Positions 3,604-14,212 of a stretch of 32,075 nt of DNA are shown here, piece after piece. Numbering within the stretch: the first letter of the stretch is position 1; each line of letters starts with the position of its first letter. A program made the position numbers and the translations under genes. Under the pieces are notes generated by a model that saw only the letters and a list, made by a program, of their open reading frames with translations, searched no databases and was not told the origin of the DNA. The stretch covers positions 5,660 to 37,734 of the IMG/VR virus record IMGVR_UViG_3300030116_000252, one strand, 5' to 3'. Origin of the DNA: a virus.

Positions 3604-3610
3604 AAAAAAT

Positions 3611-3631
3611 GGGTGGCTCAAAAGGCCACCC
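3611..3631 (-). terminator. Stem-loop oriented as a minus-strand terminator inside the plus arm
   Basis: GGGTGGC (3611-3617) pairs with GCCACCC (3625-3631) around a 7-base loop. Read on the minus strand the hairpin is followed by ATTTTTTTT, the layout of an intrinsic terminator for leftward transcription. On the plus strand it has no downstream U-tract. No minus-strand gene lies here, so it could stop antisense transcripts or act as a message-stabilising hairpin for the plus-strand gene ending at 3603. Confidence 0.55.
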
Positions 3632-3652
3632 AGTTACCATAAGGAATATAAT

Positions 3653-5578: not shown

Positions 5579-5603
5579 GTCCATATAAATAAGGAGAAAG
5601 CAC

Positions 5604-6494
5604 ATGGATAGAACTACATTCATTGGCGGTAGTGATGCCGTCAGATTAGTAAATGGTGATTGGGAAAATCTCTACCTCGAGAAGATTGGAGAGAAACAAC
5701 CTGATGACTTATCAGATAATTTACAAGTACAGATTGGTATTGCTACAGAGCAACTCAATGTTGAATGGTTTGTAAAGAATCACAGCAATAATCTTGATAT
5801 GAATATGATTGAGAGAAACAAAAGTCTTGGAGTCTATATGATAGACCATGTTCCTTGCGCTGCAAATCTTGATGGCTTGATTACACAGCATCAAGATAAG
5901 AGAGAATGGATTCTTGAATGCAAACACACCAATCCATTTACATCTATCAAAGATGTTATTGAAAGGTACATGCCACAAGTACAATTCTACATGCACTTGC
6001 ACAGACACAGAATGAAAATGATTCCAATACGGAATAGATATAACTGCTGCGGTGCATTCATATCAATCATTCAAGGCAATGGTAGCAAGTATCATCAGTC
6101 CCATATTGAGTACGATGAATTGTATGCAGAAAAGATTATGTCCCTGGTCAAAAAGTTTTGGCTCAACCATGTAGTACCAAAAGTAAAACCTACTAACGAT
6201 GGGATTGAAGACCCACCAGAGGTCAACTCAATCCCAATCGACAGAAAGGTTCAGCGTTGTATGAGTTCAAGTAATGAGTTTACCAATGATACACATGATT
6301 ACATCAAGACAATGGAAGTAGCACACAAGCATGAAGAAGCTAAGAAGAGATTGCTTAGTCATGTTACTGATGATGTGTACGAGATGTTCAATGACTATCT
6401 TGTCATATCAGTATCGAAGACTGGTAGACGTACAATCAAACTTAGGAAAGCAATTCAGCTTGCCTATGATATAATGAGTGGAGAAAAGAAATGA
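5604..6494 (+). CDS. YqaJ-family viral recombinase / 5'-3' exonuclease
   Basis: The 296-residue protein carries the YqaJ (lambda-exonuclease-like) signatures in order: FIGGSDA (6-12), GIATEQ with E49, AANLDGLI with D90, ILECKHT with E105 and K107, and YMPQVQFYM (122-130). These are the metal-binding and catalytic positions of this PDDEXK family, which resects double-strand ends to give 3' single strands for annealing. A C-terminal tail of about 100 residues is unassigned. It forms a two-component recombinase with the ERF protein that overlaps its stop by 4 bases. The start follows GGAGAAAGCAC directly, an 11-base leader that is exactly complementary to 7296-7306. Confidence 0.85.
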   Translation: MDRTTFIGGSDAVRLVNGDWENLYLEKIGEKQPDDLSDNLQVQIGIATEQLNVEWFVKNHSNNLDMNMIERNKSLGVYMIDHVPCAANLDGLITQHQDKREWILECKHTNPFTSIKDVIERYMPQVQFYMHLHRHRMKMIPIRNRYNCCGAFISIIQGNGSKYHQSHIEYDELYAEKIMSLVKKFWLNHVVPKVKPTNDGIEDPPEVNSIPIDRKVQRCMSSSNEFTNDTHDYIKTMEVAHKHEEAKKRLLSHVTDDVYEMFNDYLVISVSKTGRRTIKLRKAIQLAYDIMSGEKK

Positions 6495-6934
6495 CAAAAG
6501 AAACTATATACACAGCACTTATGAAGTGTGAGTTCAAGAAAGTAAAAGTTGAGGGTAACAATGCAATGTTCAATGCCAAGTATATGAAGGTAAAGGACAT
6601 CATACCTATGATTGAAGTAGAGTTGCAAAAGCAAAACATCATTTGCATTGGTACTATGAAAGTGAATGAACACAATTCACCGATACTCAATATACAGTTG
6701 CGACACATACCAAGCGATACATTCATCGAGAGTGAGTGTACTTGCTTAGACGATACTAAGAAAGGCAGTCAACAAATTGGTAGTGGCATTACCTACATGA
6801 CACGATACATTTTACAAAGGCTGCTTAACTTAGTGCCAGATGAAAGCACAGATGATGACGGCAATGAATCTAGCAAGTCTGGCACATTTCAGAAACCAAG
6901 AAAAGTAATTAGAAAGGATAACTATGGAATATGA
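6491..6934 (+). CDS. ERF-family single-strand annealing protein
   Basis: The 147-residue protein has the ERF signature QQIGSGITYMTRYILQRLLN (residues 94-113) followed by the acidic DESTDDDG (117-124), matching the family's 'GSa.TYarRY.L..l' and 'D.DDDG' motifs. ERF proteins anneal complementary single strands and partner an exonuclease. It is shorter than typical ERF proteins of 200 or more residues, and looks like a compact version. It overlaps the exonuclease stop by 4 bases (ATGA) and the SSB gene by 11, so the three are translationally coupled. The C-terminal 25 residues are basic and could contact DNA. Confidence 0.8.
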   Translation: MTKETIYTALMKCEFKKVKVEGNNAMFNAKYMKVKDIIPMIEVELQKQNIICIGTMKVNEHNSPILNIQLRHIPSDTFIESECTCLDDTKKGSQQIGSGITYMTRYILQRLLNLVPDESTDDDGNESSKSGTFQKPRKVIRKDNYGI

Positions 6935-7292
6935 TAACACAAATACTGGTGCAGTTTTTCAACCGAATGGTGAAGAGCTAAGTGGTACTGGAACACTTAA
7001 TGACAAGGGCAATGAGAACAGAATTGCTGTTGTCAAAGCATCATCAAAAGATGGTTCTACTGTCAGAGATATCTACTTGAAGATTGGTAGAATGTGGGAG
7101 AACGATAGCCAGAATGGTATGGCACCACAGTTTACTGGTCAGATTGATTTACCATCTGACAATAGTCGAGTTGCTGCTTGGGTCAAGCAAGGCTCATACG
7201 GCACTATGCTATCTCTTAAGCTATCACCAAAGCTTGAACAAGAACAATCATCTGTTGACAATGAACTTGAATCAGATGATATTCCATTTTAG
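6924..7292 (+). CDS. SSB-like single-stranded DNA-binding protein
   Basis: The 122-residue protein has a beta-rich core (about residues 30-102: NRIAVVKASS, VRDIYLKIGRMW, FTGQIDLPS, SYGTMLSLKLS) and ends in an acidic tail closing with DDIPF. That is the classic C-terminal partner-binding peptide of bacterial and phage SSBs. A DUF736-type relative is an alternative for the core. It sits last in the exonuclease-annealer-SSB set, as expected for a recombination or replication module. Its stop codon lies inside the first stem of the structured RNA element at 7287-7381. Confidence 0.7.
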   Translation: MEYDNTNTGAVFQPNGEELSGTGTLNDKGNENRIAVVKASSKDGSTVRDIYLKIGRMWENDSQNGMAPQFTGQIDLPSDNSRVAAWVKQGSYGTMLSLKLSPKLEQEQSSVDNELESDDIPF

Positions 7293-7381
7293 GACGTGCT
7301 TTCTCCAAAGAAGTCCTAAAACATGCTAGGGGGTCTAATACTGCTCTGCTTGCCTGACCTCCTAGCAGATAAAGAAAGCAC
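7287..7381 (+). ncRNA. Structured RNA element with pseudoknot potential, unknown family
   Basis: Three pairings fill the gap between the SSB-like gene and the next gene. Stem 1: TTTTAGGAC (7287-7295) with GTCCTAAAA (7313-7321), 9 bp. Stem 2: TGCTAGGGGGTC (7324-7335) with GACCTCCTAGCA (7356-7367), 12 bp with one G-U and a 20-base loop. Stem 3: GTGCTTTCT (7296-7304, loop of stem 1) with AGAAAGCAC (7373-7381), 9 bp. Stem 3 shares no bases with the others, so a pseudoknot is possible, or stems 1 and 3 may alternate. Stem 3 covers the only Shine-Dalgarno-like bases of the gene at 7387. No U-tract follows, so it is not a terminator. It matches no riboswitch or ribozyme that I recognise. Confidence 0.65.
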
Positions 7382-7386
7382 AGAAT

Positions 7387-7599
7387 ATGATTACAAAAAT
7401 GACACACACAGTTATTCTCATGCTTACAATCGACCTCGAGTCAGCAAGAGAATGCCAACGACTCAGCGAAAAAGTATACAATGAGAATAGATGCTTTGAA
7501 GCTTACAATATCTACAGCACAATACCACCTCGCAAACCAGATAACTTTGACGATATCATTGCTTTATATATAGAAAGGAAGAAGCTATGGGAGAGATAA
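7387..7599 (+). CDS. Small protein of unknown function downstream of the RNA element
   Basis: The 70 residues start MITKMTHTVILMLTIDLESA. A short hydrophobic stretch (VILMLTIDL) is followed by a charged helical segment and IPPRKPDNFDD. A second in-frame ATG lies four codons in. The leader is weak (AAAGAAAGCACAGAAT) and would be hidden by stem 3 of the RNA element, so translation may be controlled by that structure. It overlaps the next gene by 13 bases. No family is recognised. Confidence 0.6.
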   Translation: MITKMTHTVILMLTIDLESARECQRLSEKVYNENRCFEAYNIYSTIPPRKPDNFDDIIALYIERKKLWER

Positions 7600-9815: not shown

Positions 9816-10661
9816 CTATGCAGTTACGTAACAAACACCTATAAACACATGGTCATAAGAGCCATTGTTTGATGATTGTCTTAGATTTCTATTACTTATT
9901 GCAACGTTTTCATTACCTACCGCATTATTGAAATATTCTGTACTTGTTGAGCTAGTTGTAAATATATCAAAAGCGTTTCCATATATTCTAATTCTGCTTT
10001 CGTTATTTGCTATAACTACGTTTGTTGTTGTAGCTCCACGAAAAGATACTGTACCCCAGCCTTGTACGCTTCCAGAATTTCTTGAAGTAAAAGGCAATCC
10101 ATTTATAAAAAACTGACTGTCATTTGCACTTGTTCTGCTACTAAATTTTGCGTGACCAATAGCAACACAAACATTTCCAACTTTATGATATTTACCTTCT
10201 GTGCCACTAAATCCACCATTAGATGCAGAAGGTGTCCAGTTGCCAGAAGTATTTGTAACAGCACTAACATGCTGGGTAACTGCACTAGATGGAACTCGCG
10301 CATTTGGTATTGAACCAGATGTTAAGTTAGACGCATTAAGATTAGAAAGGTCTACATGCTGTGTTATATTTGATGCGGCAAAAAGAGCATCAGCAAATGT
10401 ACCAGATGTAATTTTAGATGTAGCTAAGTTAGGAATATCACTAGCTGACAATGACAATCGTGCAGATGGTACAGTACCAGACGTAAGATTATCTGCTGAT
10501 AACGCAGTCAAATCTACATGCTGAGTAACAGAACTAGAAGAGAGTCTAGCATCAGCGAATGTACCAGACGTTATCTTCGATGCTGGTAATGCTGGTATAA
10601 CATTAGCATTGAGTGTGCCAGACCCACTAATTACATTTGCTAAATCTCTTGCCTTTGTCAT
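9816..10661 (-). CDS. Short tail fibre paralogue 1
   Basis: The 281-residue protein has an N-terminal repeat half (about 1-135) of the type 'ASKITSGTFADARLSSSSVTQHVDL', 'NLTSGTVPSARLS', common in phage fibre stalks, then a distinct C-terminal half (about 136-281) rich in Gly, Ser and aromatics, expected to form the receptor-binding tip. The stalk is nearly the same as that of the fibre at 11032-11739 while the tips share only the fold-like core 'GKYHKVGNVCVAIGHAKF'. The two look like paralogues with diverged tips. The start MTKARDLANVISGSG is typical of such fibres. Confidence 0.7.
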   Translation of the reverse strand: MTKARDLANVISGSGTLNANVIPALPASKITSGTFADARLSSSSVTQHVDLTALSADNLTSGTVPSARLSLSASDIPNLATSKITSGTFADALFAASNITQHVDLSNLNASNLTSGSIPNARVPSSAVTQHVSAVTNTSGNWTPSASNGGFSGTEGKYHKVGNVCVAIGHAKFSSRTSANDSQFFINGLPFTSRNSGSVQGWGTVSFRGATTTNVVIANNESRIRIYGNAFDIFTTSSTSTEYFNNAVGNENVAISNRNLRQSSNNGSYDHVFIGVCYVTA

Positions 10662-11018
10662 TTATCCACCTTTTGATTTTTGGTCTGCTAAGTAATCTGC
10701 TTTTCGTTGTGAAGTAAAATAGTTTTCTAGCTCTGTCTTTACAGTTGCATCTACCTCGCCGAACACTCGGTTAAGCTCATCATCCCAGTTGTAGTCTTCT
10801 TGAACCCAGCCACGCCCAGCAGTTTTTACATCACCAAAGTTTTTACCCTCTGGCAAAGTATCTGCTTCTCTGATAGTTACTCCATCAACAACTTCAGCAT
10901 CGTGATATAAATCATCTGGTTCATGCCAAACATTCGAACACATAAATCCACACGAATGATTATCACTATCTCGCATAACGTCTATTGAAAACTCATTTTT
11001 TGTAATCGTGTAACTCAT
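10662..11018 (-). CDS. Small acidic protein between two fibre genes
   Basis: The 118 residues start MSYTITKNEFSIDVMRDSDN. The protein is acidic, with a central DTLPEGKNFGDVKTAGRGW and a C-terminal charged helix (YFTSQRKADYLADQKSKGG). Its place between two fibre genes, and the C-terminal 'Q.KADYLA' character, recall small fibre-associated or fibre-assembly proteins, but there is no clear family. It abuts fibre paralogue 1 with no gap. Confidence 0.55.
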   Translation of the reverse strand: MSYTITKNEFSIDVMRDSDNHSCGFMCSNVWHEPDDLYHDAEVVDGVTIREADTLPEGKNFGDVKTAGRGWVQEDYNWDDELNRVFGEVDATVKTELENYFTSQRKADYLADQKSKGG

Positions 11019-11031
11019 TTATCTTCTCCTG

Positions 11032-11739
11032 TTAACTGTTAGTTATGTATGTGGCTTCCCAATAAATATGTCTGTAATTTGTATTCATACTATTAACCGC
11101 TGGGTAGGCAGAATACCACTTACTCATTCTTCCTCTATTGCCATAAGTAGTTCTGCTGGCAAATTCACTACCACTGGTCAAAGTTAAGTACGCTCTTGTT
11201 GAATTTGCATCTATTTGTATCATTACAGGACCCCAGCTTGGATACAAACCCATACCGCCACCAACGTGATGCCCTCCGTTCCAAGATGTAAAAGGTAATC
11301 CAGTAAAATAAAACGGATTGCTTTCTGGTGTGCCACTACTATAGCTGTTAAATTTTCCCCTATAGGTAACATGACACACTCTGCCGACTTTTACATACTT
11401 CGCTTGGCTATGAGTAAAACTATGGTCACTCGTTCCGGGTGACCAACTCCCACGAGCATCAGCTACCGCAGTTACGTGTTGAGTAACAGAGCCACTCGAT
11501 ATTCTTGCATTATCAAAAGTTCCAGAAGTAATCTTTGATGTTGCCAAGCTGGGAATATCAGATTCACCTAGAGATAATCTTGCAGATGGAACTGTTCCAG
11601 ATGTTAAGTTATCAGCAGAGAGTGATGTTAAATCTACATGCTGTGTAACTGACCCACTCGATAATCTAGCGTTTGCAAATGTACCAGACGTAATCGCTGA
11701 CGCTGGAAACGCATATCTATTTGCTTCGTATGTACTCAT
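11032..11739 (-). CDS. Short tail fibre paralogue 2
   Basis: The 235-residue protein repeats the stalk pattern 'ASAITSGTFANARLSSGSVTQ', 'SADNLTSGTVPSARLSLGES' (about 14-90), then switches to a different tip (about 100-235) with VGRVCHVTYRGKF and a Gly-rich GGHHVGGGMGLYPSWG. The stalk is nearly identical to paralogue 1 at 9816-10661. Repeat-mediated recombination between the two stalks could exchange tips. The gene follows the main T7-type fibre at its stop. Confidence 0.7.
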   Translation of the reverse strand: MSTYEANRYAFPASAITSGTFANARLSSGSVTQHVDLTSLSADNLTSGTVPSARLSLGESDIPSLATSKITSGTFDNARISSGSVTQHVTAVADARGSWSPGTSDHSFTHSQAKYVKVGRVCHVTYRGKFNSYSSGTPESNPFYFTGLPFTSWNGGHHVGGGMGLYPSWGPVMIQIDANSTRAYLTLTSGSEFASRTTYGNRGRMSKWYSAYPAVNSMNTNYRHIYWEATYITNS

Positions 11740-11740
11740 A

Positions 11741-14212
11741 TTATTTCTCCATTAATAACCAACCCTGAGTATCCCCTGAGAATACCAGAGCAAATCCAGC
11801 TCGTTCTGTAGCAACTGTCATATCACTTGCATCGCCTTGTATCTTTTTGCCATTACGAGCAACAGTTAAATTAGCAGTATCAAATGTTGCACTCAAGTCA
11901 ATAAATCTAACAGTATCACCAGCAGTAGGGCTGGCTGGTAGCGTTGCTGTTACAGCTCCACTCGAGGTATCAACAAAGTATCCTCGACTTGCCGCTACAT
12001 TAAATGCAGATGTTTTTGTTTCCCAAGTAAAATCTGTTTCAACAGTCACTGAACCACCCAAAGCAATAGCAGAACCATTGATTGTTATAGAAGAGTTAGC
12101 TAATGCTGAGTTTGGAACTGATGACAATCTAGCATTGGGTAATGTTCCAGAACTTATATTTGATGCGTCTATAGATGCAACATTAAATGTACCGAAACCA
12201 ACTATGTCTACTACATCGCCATTAGCAAGAGCAGAAGCAAACACAACAGATGAACCACTCGTTACAGTTACATCTGTACCATTAACTTGTTTTACACCAT
12301 TAAGATAAACGTCAACAAAACCAGCGTCATAAGCAAGAGTATTACCATTGGCATCACTCCCAGTTACAGTTGTTGGTGTACCAGATATATTATAAGTAAA
12401 TCGAGCAGACGTTCCATTTACTGTAGAACCAGCTGCTGCCCAACCAGATGACTTATATACCTTCAGCTCATTTGCAGTTGTATCAAAAAATAAATCACCA
12501 ACATCTAATGTATTATTCGCAAGAGCATTTCTTTCTGAAGTTGTACCAACTTTATAAACATTTCCAAATGATGTTACTTGACCTATGTTTGCAGCAACTG
12601 TATTTACATTTGCTATCGAACCACCTACATTATTTACGTTTGTTATTGCACCAGCAACTGCTGAGATATTTGAGTTTGCACCAGCAACAGTAGTAACATC
12701 AGAAGATATGCCAGCAACTGTTGTAACATTAGCTTGTATGCCAGCAACTGTATTTATATTTGTTAGACCGCCACCAACTGTATTTACATTTGCAATCGAA
12801 CCAGCAACCAAAGATATATTACTATCCTTGACTGTGATTGTATTACCCATACCATTGCCATGAACATAGCAGTAGTATCTCAATCCAGATGATGGTGCTG
12901 TTGTTGCAACTTCTATCTGTATCTTTCTATCGCCAGAGCTTCGACCAGCATTAAAGGTTGTAGTGTTTACATAGTTTGATTGTGTGGTTGCAGAACCATT
13001 TAAAAAGTAAGTAACACCAACTTCGTATGCAGAGCTACCATTTTTAAATACTAATGGGTGTCCATCATTAGTCGCATCATTCTGATTAAAAATATATGTA
13101 TTACCTCTAAACACCTCAATAGCTGGTGCATTAGAGCTATCGAGAACAAACACATTACCAGAACCAGGATTTGCAACAGTAACTGTGTATGTTTTCTCAA
13201 GAGAATTAGCTAGCGATGTTATATCACCAGAGATTGCTGCCAAAGTGTTGAGGTCAGATACTGCGTCAGATGTACCAAGAAGAGCAACATTAGAAGCAAC
13301 ACCAGATACATTTGATAAATGCGTTGTATTTATGCCAGCAACTGTACTCACATTCGATGCTATGCCAGCTACACTTGTTACGTCTGATGCTATACCAGCA
13401 ACAGTAGTAACATTAGCTTTAATATTTTCAACAGCAGCAACATCACTTGAGATACCAGCAACAGCTGTAACATCACTTGCAATTCCAGCAACTGTACCAA
13501 TATTTGTAATTACTCCTGATGCATTGAGAGCTGCAATATTCGCATTCGCATTAGCAACTGTTGTAACATTTCCTGAAATTCCAGCAACTGTTGTAACATT
13601 ACTCGATATACCAGCTACAGTCGTTACATCTGCACTTATACCAGCTACAGTAGTTACATTTGCACTTATACCAGCAACAGTATTTATATTAGCTGACTGC
13701 GTTGCTACAGTCGTTACAGAAGATATGCTTGGTCCAGCTTCAACAGCACCAGTTGTAGCATTAAAAGCCATTACTGTACCTACTCTTGATGCTTTAAGAG
13801 GTAGCTCCATAGATGCAGAAGCATCAGAATCTTGCAATCTTATTGAACGACTTATTGTATCATCTACATCAGCATCTATAGCTACTAATTTATCTAGCTC
13901 AGTATTCAGAGAAGAAATATTAAATGCACCAGAAACTGGAAAGTCTGTTGTTCTTTCTAGGGCTATATCTCTTGTTATTACTACAGTTGACCCACCACTT
14001 GCTCCTGTCACACTCATCGTGACTGTTCCTGTTGAACCATTGCCACCTGATACTGTGTAGTGAGTAGTGATTGTTTTTAGCGTATTATCTACAAATACTT
14101 TTAGGTCTGCTGCTGCAAAAAACTCAAAGTTTACTGTAAAAGAGGTCTGTGTTTGCCCTTGAGCAACCGAATATGACACTCTTGGTGTATTATTTGATAC
14201 TGATATGGTCAT
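11741..14212 (-). CDS. T7-type tail fibre with repeat stalk and cupredoxin-like insert
   Basis: The 823-residue protein starts with a domain like the N-terminus of T7 gp17 (about residues 1-150: VSYSVAQGQTQTSFTVNFEF, then DIALERTTDFPVSG), which attaches fibres to the tail. A stalk of decapeptide-like repeats follows ('NVTTVAGISADVTTVAGISS', about 165-340 and 467-545), interrupted at about 341-465 by a beta-rich domain with H385, C448, H451 and M455 arranged as in type-1 copper proteins. A C-terminal part (about 550-823) carries TSGTLPNARLS-type sequence and a beta-rich tip. It is the longest fibre and follows the internal virion proteins, as in T7. Confidence 0.8.
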   Translation of the reverse strand: MTISVSNNTPRVSYSVAQGQTQTSFTVNFEFFAAADLKVFVDNTLKTITTHYTVSGGNGSTGTVTMSVTGASGGSTVVITRDIALERTTDFPVSGAFNISSLNTELDKLVAIDADVDDTISRSIRLQDSDASASMELPLKASRVGTVMAFNATTGAVEAGPSISSVTTVATQSANINTVAGISANVTTVAGISADVTTVAGISSNVTTVAGISGNVTTVANANANIAALNASGVITNIGTVAGIASDVTAVAGISSDVAAVENIKANVTTVAGIASDVTSVAGIASNVSTVAGINTTHLSNVSGVASNVALLGTSDAVSDLNTLAAISGDITSLANSLEKTYTVTVANPGSGNVFVLDSSNAPAIEVFRGNTYIFNQNDATNDGHPLVFKNGSSAYEVGVTYFLNGSATTQSNYVNTTTFNAGRSSGDRKIQIEVATTAPSSGLRYYCYVHGNGMGNTITVKDSNISLVAGSIANVNTVGGGLTNINTVAGIQANVTTVAGISSDVTTVAGANSNISAVAGAITNVNNVGGSIANVNTVAANIGQVTSFGNVYKVGTTSERNALANNTLDVGDLFFDTTANELKVYKSSGWAAAGSTVNGTSARFTYNISGTPTTVTGSDANGNTLAYDAGFVDVYLNGVKQVNGTDVTVTSGSSVVFASALANGDVVDIVGFGTFNVASIDASNISSGTLPNARLSSVPNSALANSSITINGSAIALGGSVTVETDFTWETKTSAFNVAASRGYFVDTSSGAVTATLPASPTAGDTVRFIDLSATFDTANLTVARNGKKIQGDASDMTVATERAGFALVFSGDTQGWLLMEK
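12578..13720 (-). repeat. Repeats encoding 'V.TVAGI' stalk units
   Basis: Two blocks of short tandem repeats code for units of the form NVTTVAGI(S/A)xx. One runs at about 13193-13720 (residues 165-340) and the other at about 12578-12814 (residues 467-545). They are separated by the non-repetitive cupredoxin-like segment at 12818-13192. The plus strand reads them as runs of 'ccagcaactgttgtaacatt'-like units, which explains the long open frames on the opposite strand. Such repeats can expand or contract by slippage and change stalk length. Confidence 0.75.

Follow-up and report, generated by a model that had tools for sequence, protein, structure and literature searches.

What is controlled by the structured gap between an ssb-like gene and the small orphan gene behind it in this phage genome, and what does the loop of its first hairpin pair with? 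The locus lies in a 32,075-nt stretch of viral DNA, here termed the window. To our knowledge, little is known about the regulatory RNAs of ocean phages, most of which have never been grown. The phage has a G+C content of 36%, and its nearest isolate by capsid comparison is Pelagibacter phage Hodr (53% identity). Upstream of the gap, on the + strand and opposite to the virion genes, lie three overlapping genes that look like a single transcription unit. They encode a YqaJ/RecE-type exonuclease (exo, 5604-6494; Pfam PF09588, 8.7e-9; PHROG 434), an ERF annealing protein (erf, 6491-6934) and the SSB-like protein (6924-7292; PHROG 18154, 3.1e-8), which ends in DDIPF and whose gene holds a promoter-like box and the 5' arm of the first hairpin.

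The gene behind the gap, ORF70 (7387-7599, + strand), encodes an orphan protein of 70 aa detected in 74-77 IMG/VR loci at 74-96% identity, and is a candidate cis target of the element. At the sensitivity used, it was not found in phage isolates or bacterial genomes. It mapped to no Pfam or PHROGs family at useful scores and to no metabolic family, and its predicted structure (pLDDT 60) was too poor for use. Synonymous constraint at the start of ORF70, a sign of further RNA structure, was looked for and not seen. ORF70 is better conserved than the SSB preceding it, which diverges down to 24% identity, and the tree of the SSBs conflicts with that of ORF70, suggesting recombination close to the ssb-ORF70 junction. 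Elsewhere in the window, a strong hairpin resembling an intrinsic terminator (TGGGTGGCCTTTTGAGCCACCCA, with eight T behind it) lies on the - strand of the early region at 3610-3632, and several neighbouring tail-fibre-like ORFs at 9816-14212, also on the - strand, have common repeats of the type SKITSGTFADARLSSGSVTQHVDL, suggestive of duplication.

Direct reading of the gap located all three pairings described in the initial annotation, which have no bases in common. The first hairpin (P1, 7287-7321) is formed by TTTTAGGAC (7287-7295) and GTCCTAAAA (7313-7321), with 9/9 positions paired, and contains the ssb stop codon (TAG, 7290-7292), as had been noted. The second (P2, 7324-7367) joins TGCTAGGGGGTC (7324-7335) to GACCTCCTAGCA (7356-7367) through 12 pairs, including one G-U. 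The third pairing links the P1 loop strand GTGCTTTCT (7296-7304) to the segment AGAAAGCAC of the ORF70 leader (7373-7381), again at 9/9 positions. The fold of the 111-nt strand presented a z-score of -3.3, with one of 200 shuffles equally stable, and a 9-bp Watson-Crick match between loop and leader arose in 5/5000 dinucleotide shuffles and at 10/9134 window positions of the same geometry. Nested energies were computed at about -30 to -33 kcal/mol for P1 with P2 and at -31.4 kcal/mol for the loop-leader stem with P2. In this model the two are near-isoenergetic alternatives, and their near-equal energies make a bistable ORF70 leader plausible. The earlier remark that no known RNA family could be recognized agrees with Rfam (release 15), in which neither the window nor six relatives scored above a gathering threshold; at E-values up to 10, the sole match was a chance snoRNA match on the other strand. 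Two further candidate roles were discarded: pairing of the loop with a P2 arm as an antiterminator, judged by eye, is not conserved, and the reading frame of a putative peptide running through the loop differs between clades.

IMG/VR searches with the SSB and ORF70 returned 63 and then 74-77 loci, from which 38 distinct junctions could be parsed between the ssb stop and the ORF70 start. MAFFT alignments displaced the 5' arm of P1, and pairs were instead counted with a script that took the ssb stop as its reference point. A P1 hairpin starting at this stop and followed by a second hairpin was present in 38/38 junctions. The P1 loop UUUCUCCAAA was unchanged, with the 10-mer TTTCTCCAAA (7300-7309 in the window) identical in all of them, and remained constant even though the preceding SSBs diverge to 24% identity. 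The covariation that had been put forward as a check on the first stem is evident: TTTTAG/CTAAAA changes to TTCTAG/CTAGAA, with pair 3 changing from T-A to C-G and pair 8 occurring as G-C, G-U or A-U. The loop is missing from SSB relatives without ORF70 behind them (L054-L056, L058, L059 and L061), and collection scans for the loop with P1 outside the ssb-ORF70 locus yielded chance or coding matches only. Ten loci (L119, L122-L125, L127 and L129-L132) encode a longer SSB-like protein of 166 aa, about 24% identical, and keep the same P1 loop and ORF70, with P2 replaced by an unrelated terminator hairpin.

When the loop was scanned against the whole window, the RBS of exo ranked first, with 11 perfect pairs and -19.6 kcal/mol; the second-ranked partner was the loop's own complementary strand. 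The seed GTGCTTTCTCC (7296-7306) is the exact complement of GGAGAAAGCAC (5593-5603, + strand), which adjoins the exo ATG at 5604 and lies 1.7 kb upstream of the element. Judged by complementarity, the best partner of the loop is hence the exo RBS rather than the ORF70 leader, a candidate that the initial annotation overlooked. Pairing between loop and exo RBS was identified in every clade, spanning 9-13 contiguous bp with compensatory changes and becoming imperfect beyond 9 bp in some loci (L306, L337). In particular, the 5' extension of the loop tracks the exo RBS, reading GTGC/GCAC in the window, ATAGTT/AACTAT in L298 and L264, TAGC/GCTA in L288 and TGC/GCA in L317 and L290. Swapping loops and exo RBSs among nine representatives gave p = 0.007, in a permutation test that, like the one on the ORF70 leader below, ignores relatedness and draws on about 6-7 clades only. 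In this respect the element resembles a base-pairing regulatory sRNA: it has a conserved seed, predicted to be unpaired, that is complementary to target RBSs and covaries with its target. The segment 5582-5603 before exo (ATATAAATAAGGAGAAAGC) is nearly unchanged between clades beyond the RBS proper, and may harbour a promoter or some other regulatory site.

Pairing between the loop and the ORF70 leader varies across clades. It is longest in the L028 clade, at 12-13 bp, where it extends over the Shine-Dalgarno sequence and AUG of ORF70; the window clade has 9-10 bp, L104 has 10 bp and the L024 clade 8 bp. Cognate loops and leaders pair more strongly than swapped ones (p = 0.0003, 14 representatives, relatedness ignored). 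The pairing is lost in the L105/L113/L117 and L119/L122-type clades (-2 to -3 kcal/mol), both of which retain the invariant loop, there combined with a P2 followed by 6-8 U. Covariation in this third helix, also suggested as a check, is therefore compensated in most clades and absent from these two. Of the earlier proposal of a structured RNA hiding the ORF70 RBS, the structure and the pairing stand; the missing pairing in two loop-keeping clades limits the rest. Since the loop is kept where the leader pairing is gone, sequestration of the ORF70 RBS cannot explain its invariance. The exo pairing is stronger than the ORF70 pairing in every clade and persists where the latter is lost, and the best reading of these patterns is that the ORF70 leader would be a secondary, cis target of the loop.

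A collection scan for distant exo relatives gathered the further loci L382-L386. In L382-L384 the exo RBS reads differently (GGGAGATTACTATG) and the DNA examined contains no loop of this kind; in L383 the next gene follows directly after ssb. The exo RBS of L385 and L386 (exo 33% identical), TGGGAGATAAACATG, also differs from the window type, and just past their ssb lies a terminator-like hairpin, AGCCAGCTTCAT-ATCTCCCA-ATGAAGCTGGCT-TCTTTTT, whose loop ATCTCCCA is antisense to the exo RBS of these same loci, TGGGAGATAA. In front of this hairpin, the ssb stop falls within a possible CTAGG...CCTAG stem around TATCTCC, although this part is paired differently in the computed minimum-energy fold. 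These loci hence present two anti-RBS loops, and the gene behind the hairpin is not ORF70. We regard this case, in which another sequence stands in the same place and matches its own exo RBS in the same way, as the strongest single piece of evidence for the exo pairing; it is one comparison, found by deliberate search.

These observations bear on the reading closest to the initial annotation, in which the ORF70 RBS is hidden by a pseudoknot formed in cis between ssb and ORF70, and ribosomes that terminate on ssb unfold P1 and occupy its loop, coupling the two genes. The preference for cognate loop-leader pairs and the coverage of the start site in the L028 clade are in keeping with it, as are the location of the ssb stop inside P1 in all clades and the presence of ORF70 downstream in 38/38 junctions. 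The two clades that keep the loop without the pairing, the stronger exo pairing throughout and the comparable antisense hairpin of L385/L386, found without ORF70, argue against it, and we regard it as an unlikely account of the element. Translational coupling from ssb to ORF70 is possible as a side function of an antisense RNA directed at early-gene RBSs.

Additional predicted targets of such an RNA were identified among the early genes of the window, all on the + strand. The RBS GGAGAAAGC (2333-2341) of ORF 2344-2634 is the second predicted target, with 10 bp, and GGAGAAAGTA (1977-1986), the RBS of ORF 1987-2265, pairs over 10 bp including G-U. The erf RBS GGAGAAAA (6480-6487) is a weaker predicted target; it pairs over 7 bp in the window, and other clades reach up to 10. 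At a threshold of 9 bp, four + strand RBSs in the window pair with the loop (exo, 11; ORFs 1987 and 2344, 10 each; ORF70, 9), and among the late genes only the portal RBS does (10 bp with G-U). Because the seed includes an anti-Shine-Dalgarno core, some of its match to any RBS is generic; shuffles of the seed flanks that retained CTCC matched the observed pairing numbers in 17/2000 cases. Across the 63 junction-bearing loci, GGAGAAA[G/A]C precedes the ATG of an ORF of at least 50 aa 157 times in the 312 kb of upstream early strand. The 159 kb of downstream late strand and the opposite strand of the upstream part have 0 such sites each; none of these counts is independent of ancestry. The predicted targets correspond to 152 distinct proteins in 16 clusters, the exo cluster being the largest, and include genes 3-6 kb upstream of the element; the first 5.7 kb of the genome contain no further GGAGAAA..ATG site. 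Among phages without the element, GGAGAAA[G/A]C was counted 0 times in the whole Hodr genome and was not seen in the stretch examined of the HTVC106P ssb region.

A candidate promoter was identified within ssb. TTGACA (7255-7260, + strand; promoter scan match 10 of 12), a putative -35 box, is the only copy on the + strand of the early region, and is invariant at a fixed distance in 32/32 distinct upstream sequences, 27 nt before the P1 start (7287). The use of GAC for 28% of Asp codons in the window's early genes, together with the free variation of ssb codons near the box, indicates that TTGACA is likely to be under constraint at the DNA level. A weak candidate -10 box, GATATT (7278-7283, + strand; 4 of 6), follows after a 17-nt spacer in most clades, with TGAAAT/GAAATA instead in the L028-type clade. 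The predicted transcription start is at about 7290-7291, and the stem of the L119/L122-type clade, which starts at the A of the stop codon, fits this prediction. At the other end, P2 carries 6-8 U and resembles an intrinsic terminator in several clades, and hairpins with a U-run are present in L105, L113, L117, the L119/L122 type, L041/L051 and L385. The window and L024 clades have no U-run after P2, and a discrete 3' end is therefore unsupported there; the window-clade RNA may be processed, or may stay within a longer transcript whose loop can also occlude the ORF70 RBS.

The same features weigh on a long-range cis mechanism, in which the hairpin would pair with the exo RBS 1.7 kb upstream within one exo-erf-ssb mRNA, with no free sRNA. 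The apparent single transcription unit, the window-clade P2 without U-run and the standing of exo as the most constant target fit this reading. The predicted targets 3-6 kb upstream, as well as the promoter-like box and the U-runs of other clades, favour a free RNA, which would act in trans; the long-range mechanism appears even less likely than the cis pseudoknot. A ligand-binding riboswitch in the ORF70 leader, with terminator or RBS sequestration as its expression platform, had been conceived by analogy with SAM-II and preQ1 types, and a conserved loop joined to either device does resemble an aptamer with interchangeable platforms. This idea is very improbable, given that no class model or Rfam family matched, that the element was found in a single genomic context, that ORF70 belongs to no metabolic family and that complementarity to early RBSs accounts for the invariant bases. 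Equally improbable is a DNA-level site, with GGAGAAAGC and its inverted copy bound by a phage DNA-binding protein and no RNA-RNA pairing. In its favour, the motif is enriched over chance (3 exact copies in the window against 0.12 expected) and confined to the early strand. Against it, the motif has a fixed position immediately ahead of start codons, where it can be read as a Shine-Dalgarno sequence, and its inverse copy lies in hairpin loops with compensating stems and changes with the target in L385/L386.

The data hence favour, with a probability of roughly two in three, a phage antisense regulatory RNA that pairs with early-gene RBSs, that of exo first. It is probably an sRNA of about 80 nt, with its own promoter inside ssb, that represses early-gene translation. 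On this reading, the transcript would begin where ssb ends, with TTGACA-17-GATATT as its probable promoter, and fold into P1 and P2, with P1 presenting the loop UUUCUCC and its clade-specific 5' extension. The loop would pair with the Shine-Dalgarno region of early genes, and in some clades with the start codon, targeting the recombination exonuclease first and then other early genes, including erf. Ribosome loading would be blocked, and early synthesis reduced, as soon as transcription has reached the operon's end. The RNA would end at P2 where a U-run is present, and on read-through the same loop may close the ORF70 RBS in cis. Its position at the end of exo-erf-ssb would suit feedback or an early-to-late switch. 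Sequence comparison alone has here delivered a candidate RNA, its seed, its target set and their coevolution, and leads to the prediction that a change in loop or RBS would lose repression and that a matching change of both would restore it.

Several known systems present partial parallels to this putative RNA. The autoregulatory pseudoknot of T4 lies upstream of gene 32 and binds gp32 (PMC3014915, PMC535899). It likewise ties an RNA structure to a phage ssb gene and to RBS control, whereas the element described here lies downstream of ssb, a position unlike that of a T4-type gene 32 operator, and is predicted to pair with RNA. STAXI motifs, tandemly repeated pseudoknots near ssb and other DNA-handling genes (PMC2864571), also place a pseudoknot-type RNA near ssb, but no STAXI match was returned here by the Rfam searches. 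OppZ and CarZ are 3'-UTR sRNAs of Vibrio cholerae that are cut out by RNase E and repress their own operons (PMC7398697). They pair with an upstream translation start within the operon whose 3' end they come from and inhibit translation, as is proposed for the phage RNA; those RNAs are bacterial and RNase E-cut, whereas this one is phage-encoded, with its own promoter-like box and many predicted early targets reached via a common RBS code. The alpha-r14 or cuckoo sRNAs of Alphaproteobacteria, such as NfeR1, carry the motif CCUCCUCCC in three hairpins (PMC10746234), and share with the element an ultraconserved anti-Shine-Dalgarno motif in loops with variable stems, and many mRNA targets (here predicted). 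The phage element differs from them in its single UUUCUCCAAA loop (two anti-RBS loops in L385/L386), its predicted phage targets and the absence of an Rfam match; membership in this family was rejected because CCUCCUCCC does not occur in the loop. Finally, T4 RegA is a phage protein that represses translation of many phage mRNAs (PMC3014915), a parallel in outcome only, with a repressor protein in T4 and, as proposed, an RNA here. Extending the antisense reading, we tentatively suggest, at somewhat less than even odds, an RNA counterpart of RegA: one phage sRNA from the ssb-internal promoter would shut off the GGAGAAA[G/A]C early genes as infection proceeds, its loop being reused in cis so that ORF70 opens when early mRNAs occupy the loop. 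If so, a phage could set the timing of its early genes through one antisense RNA and a common RBS code.
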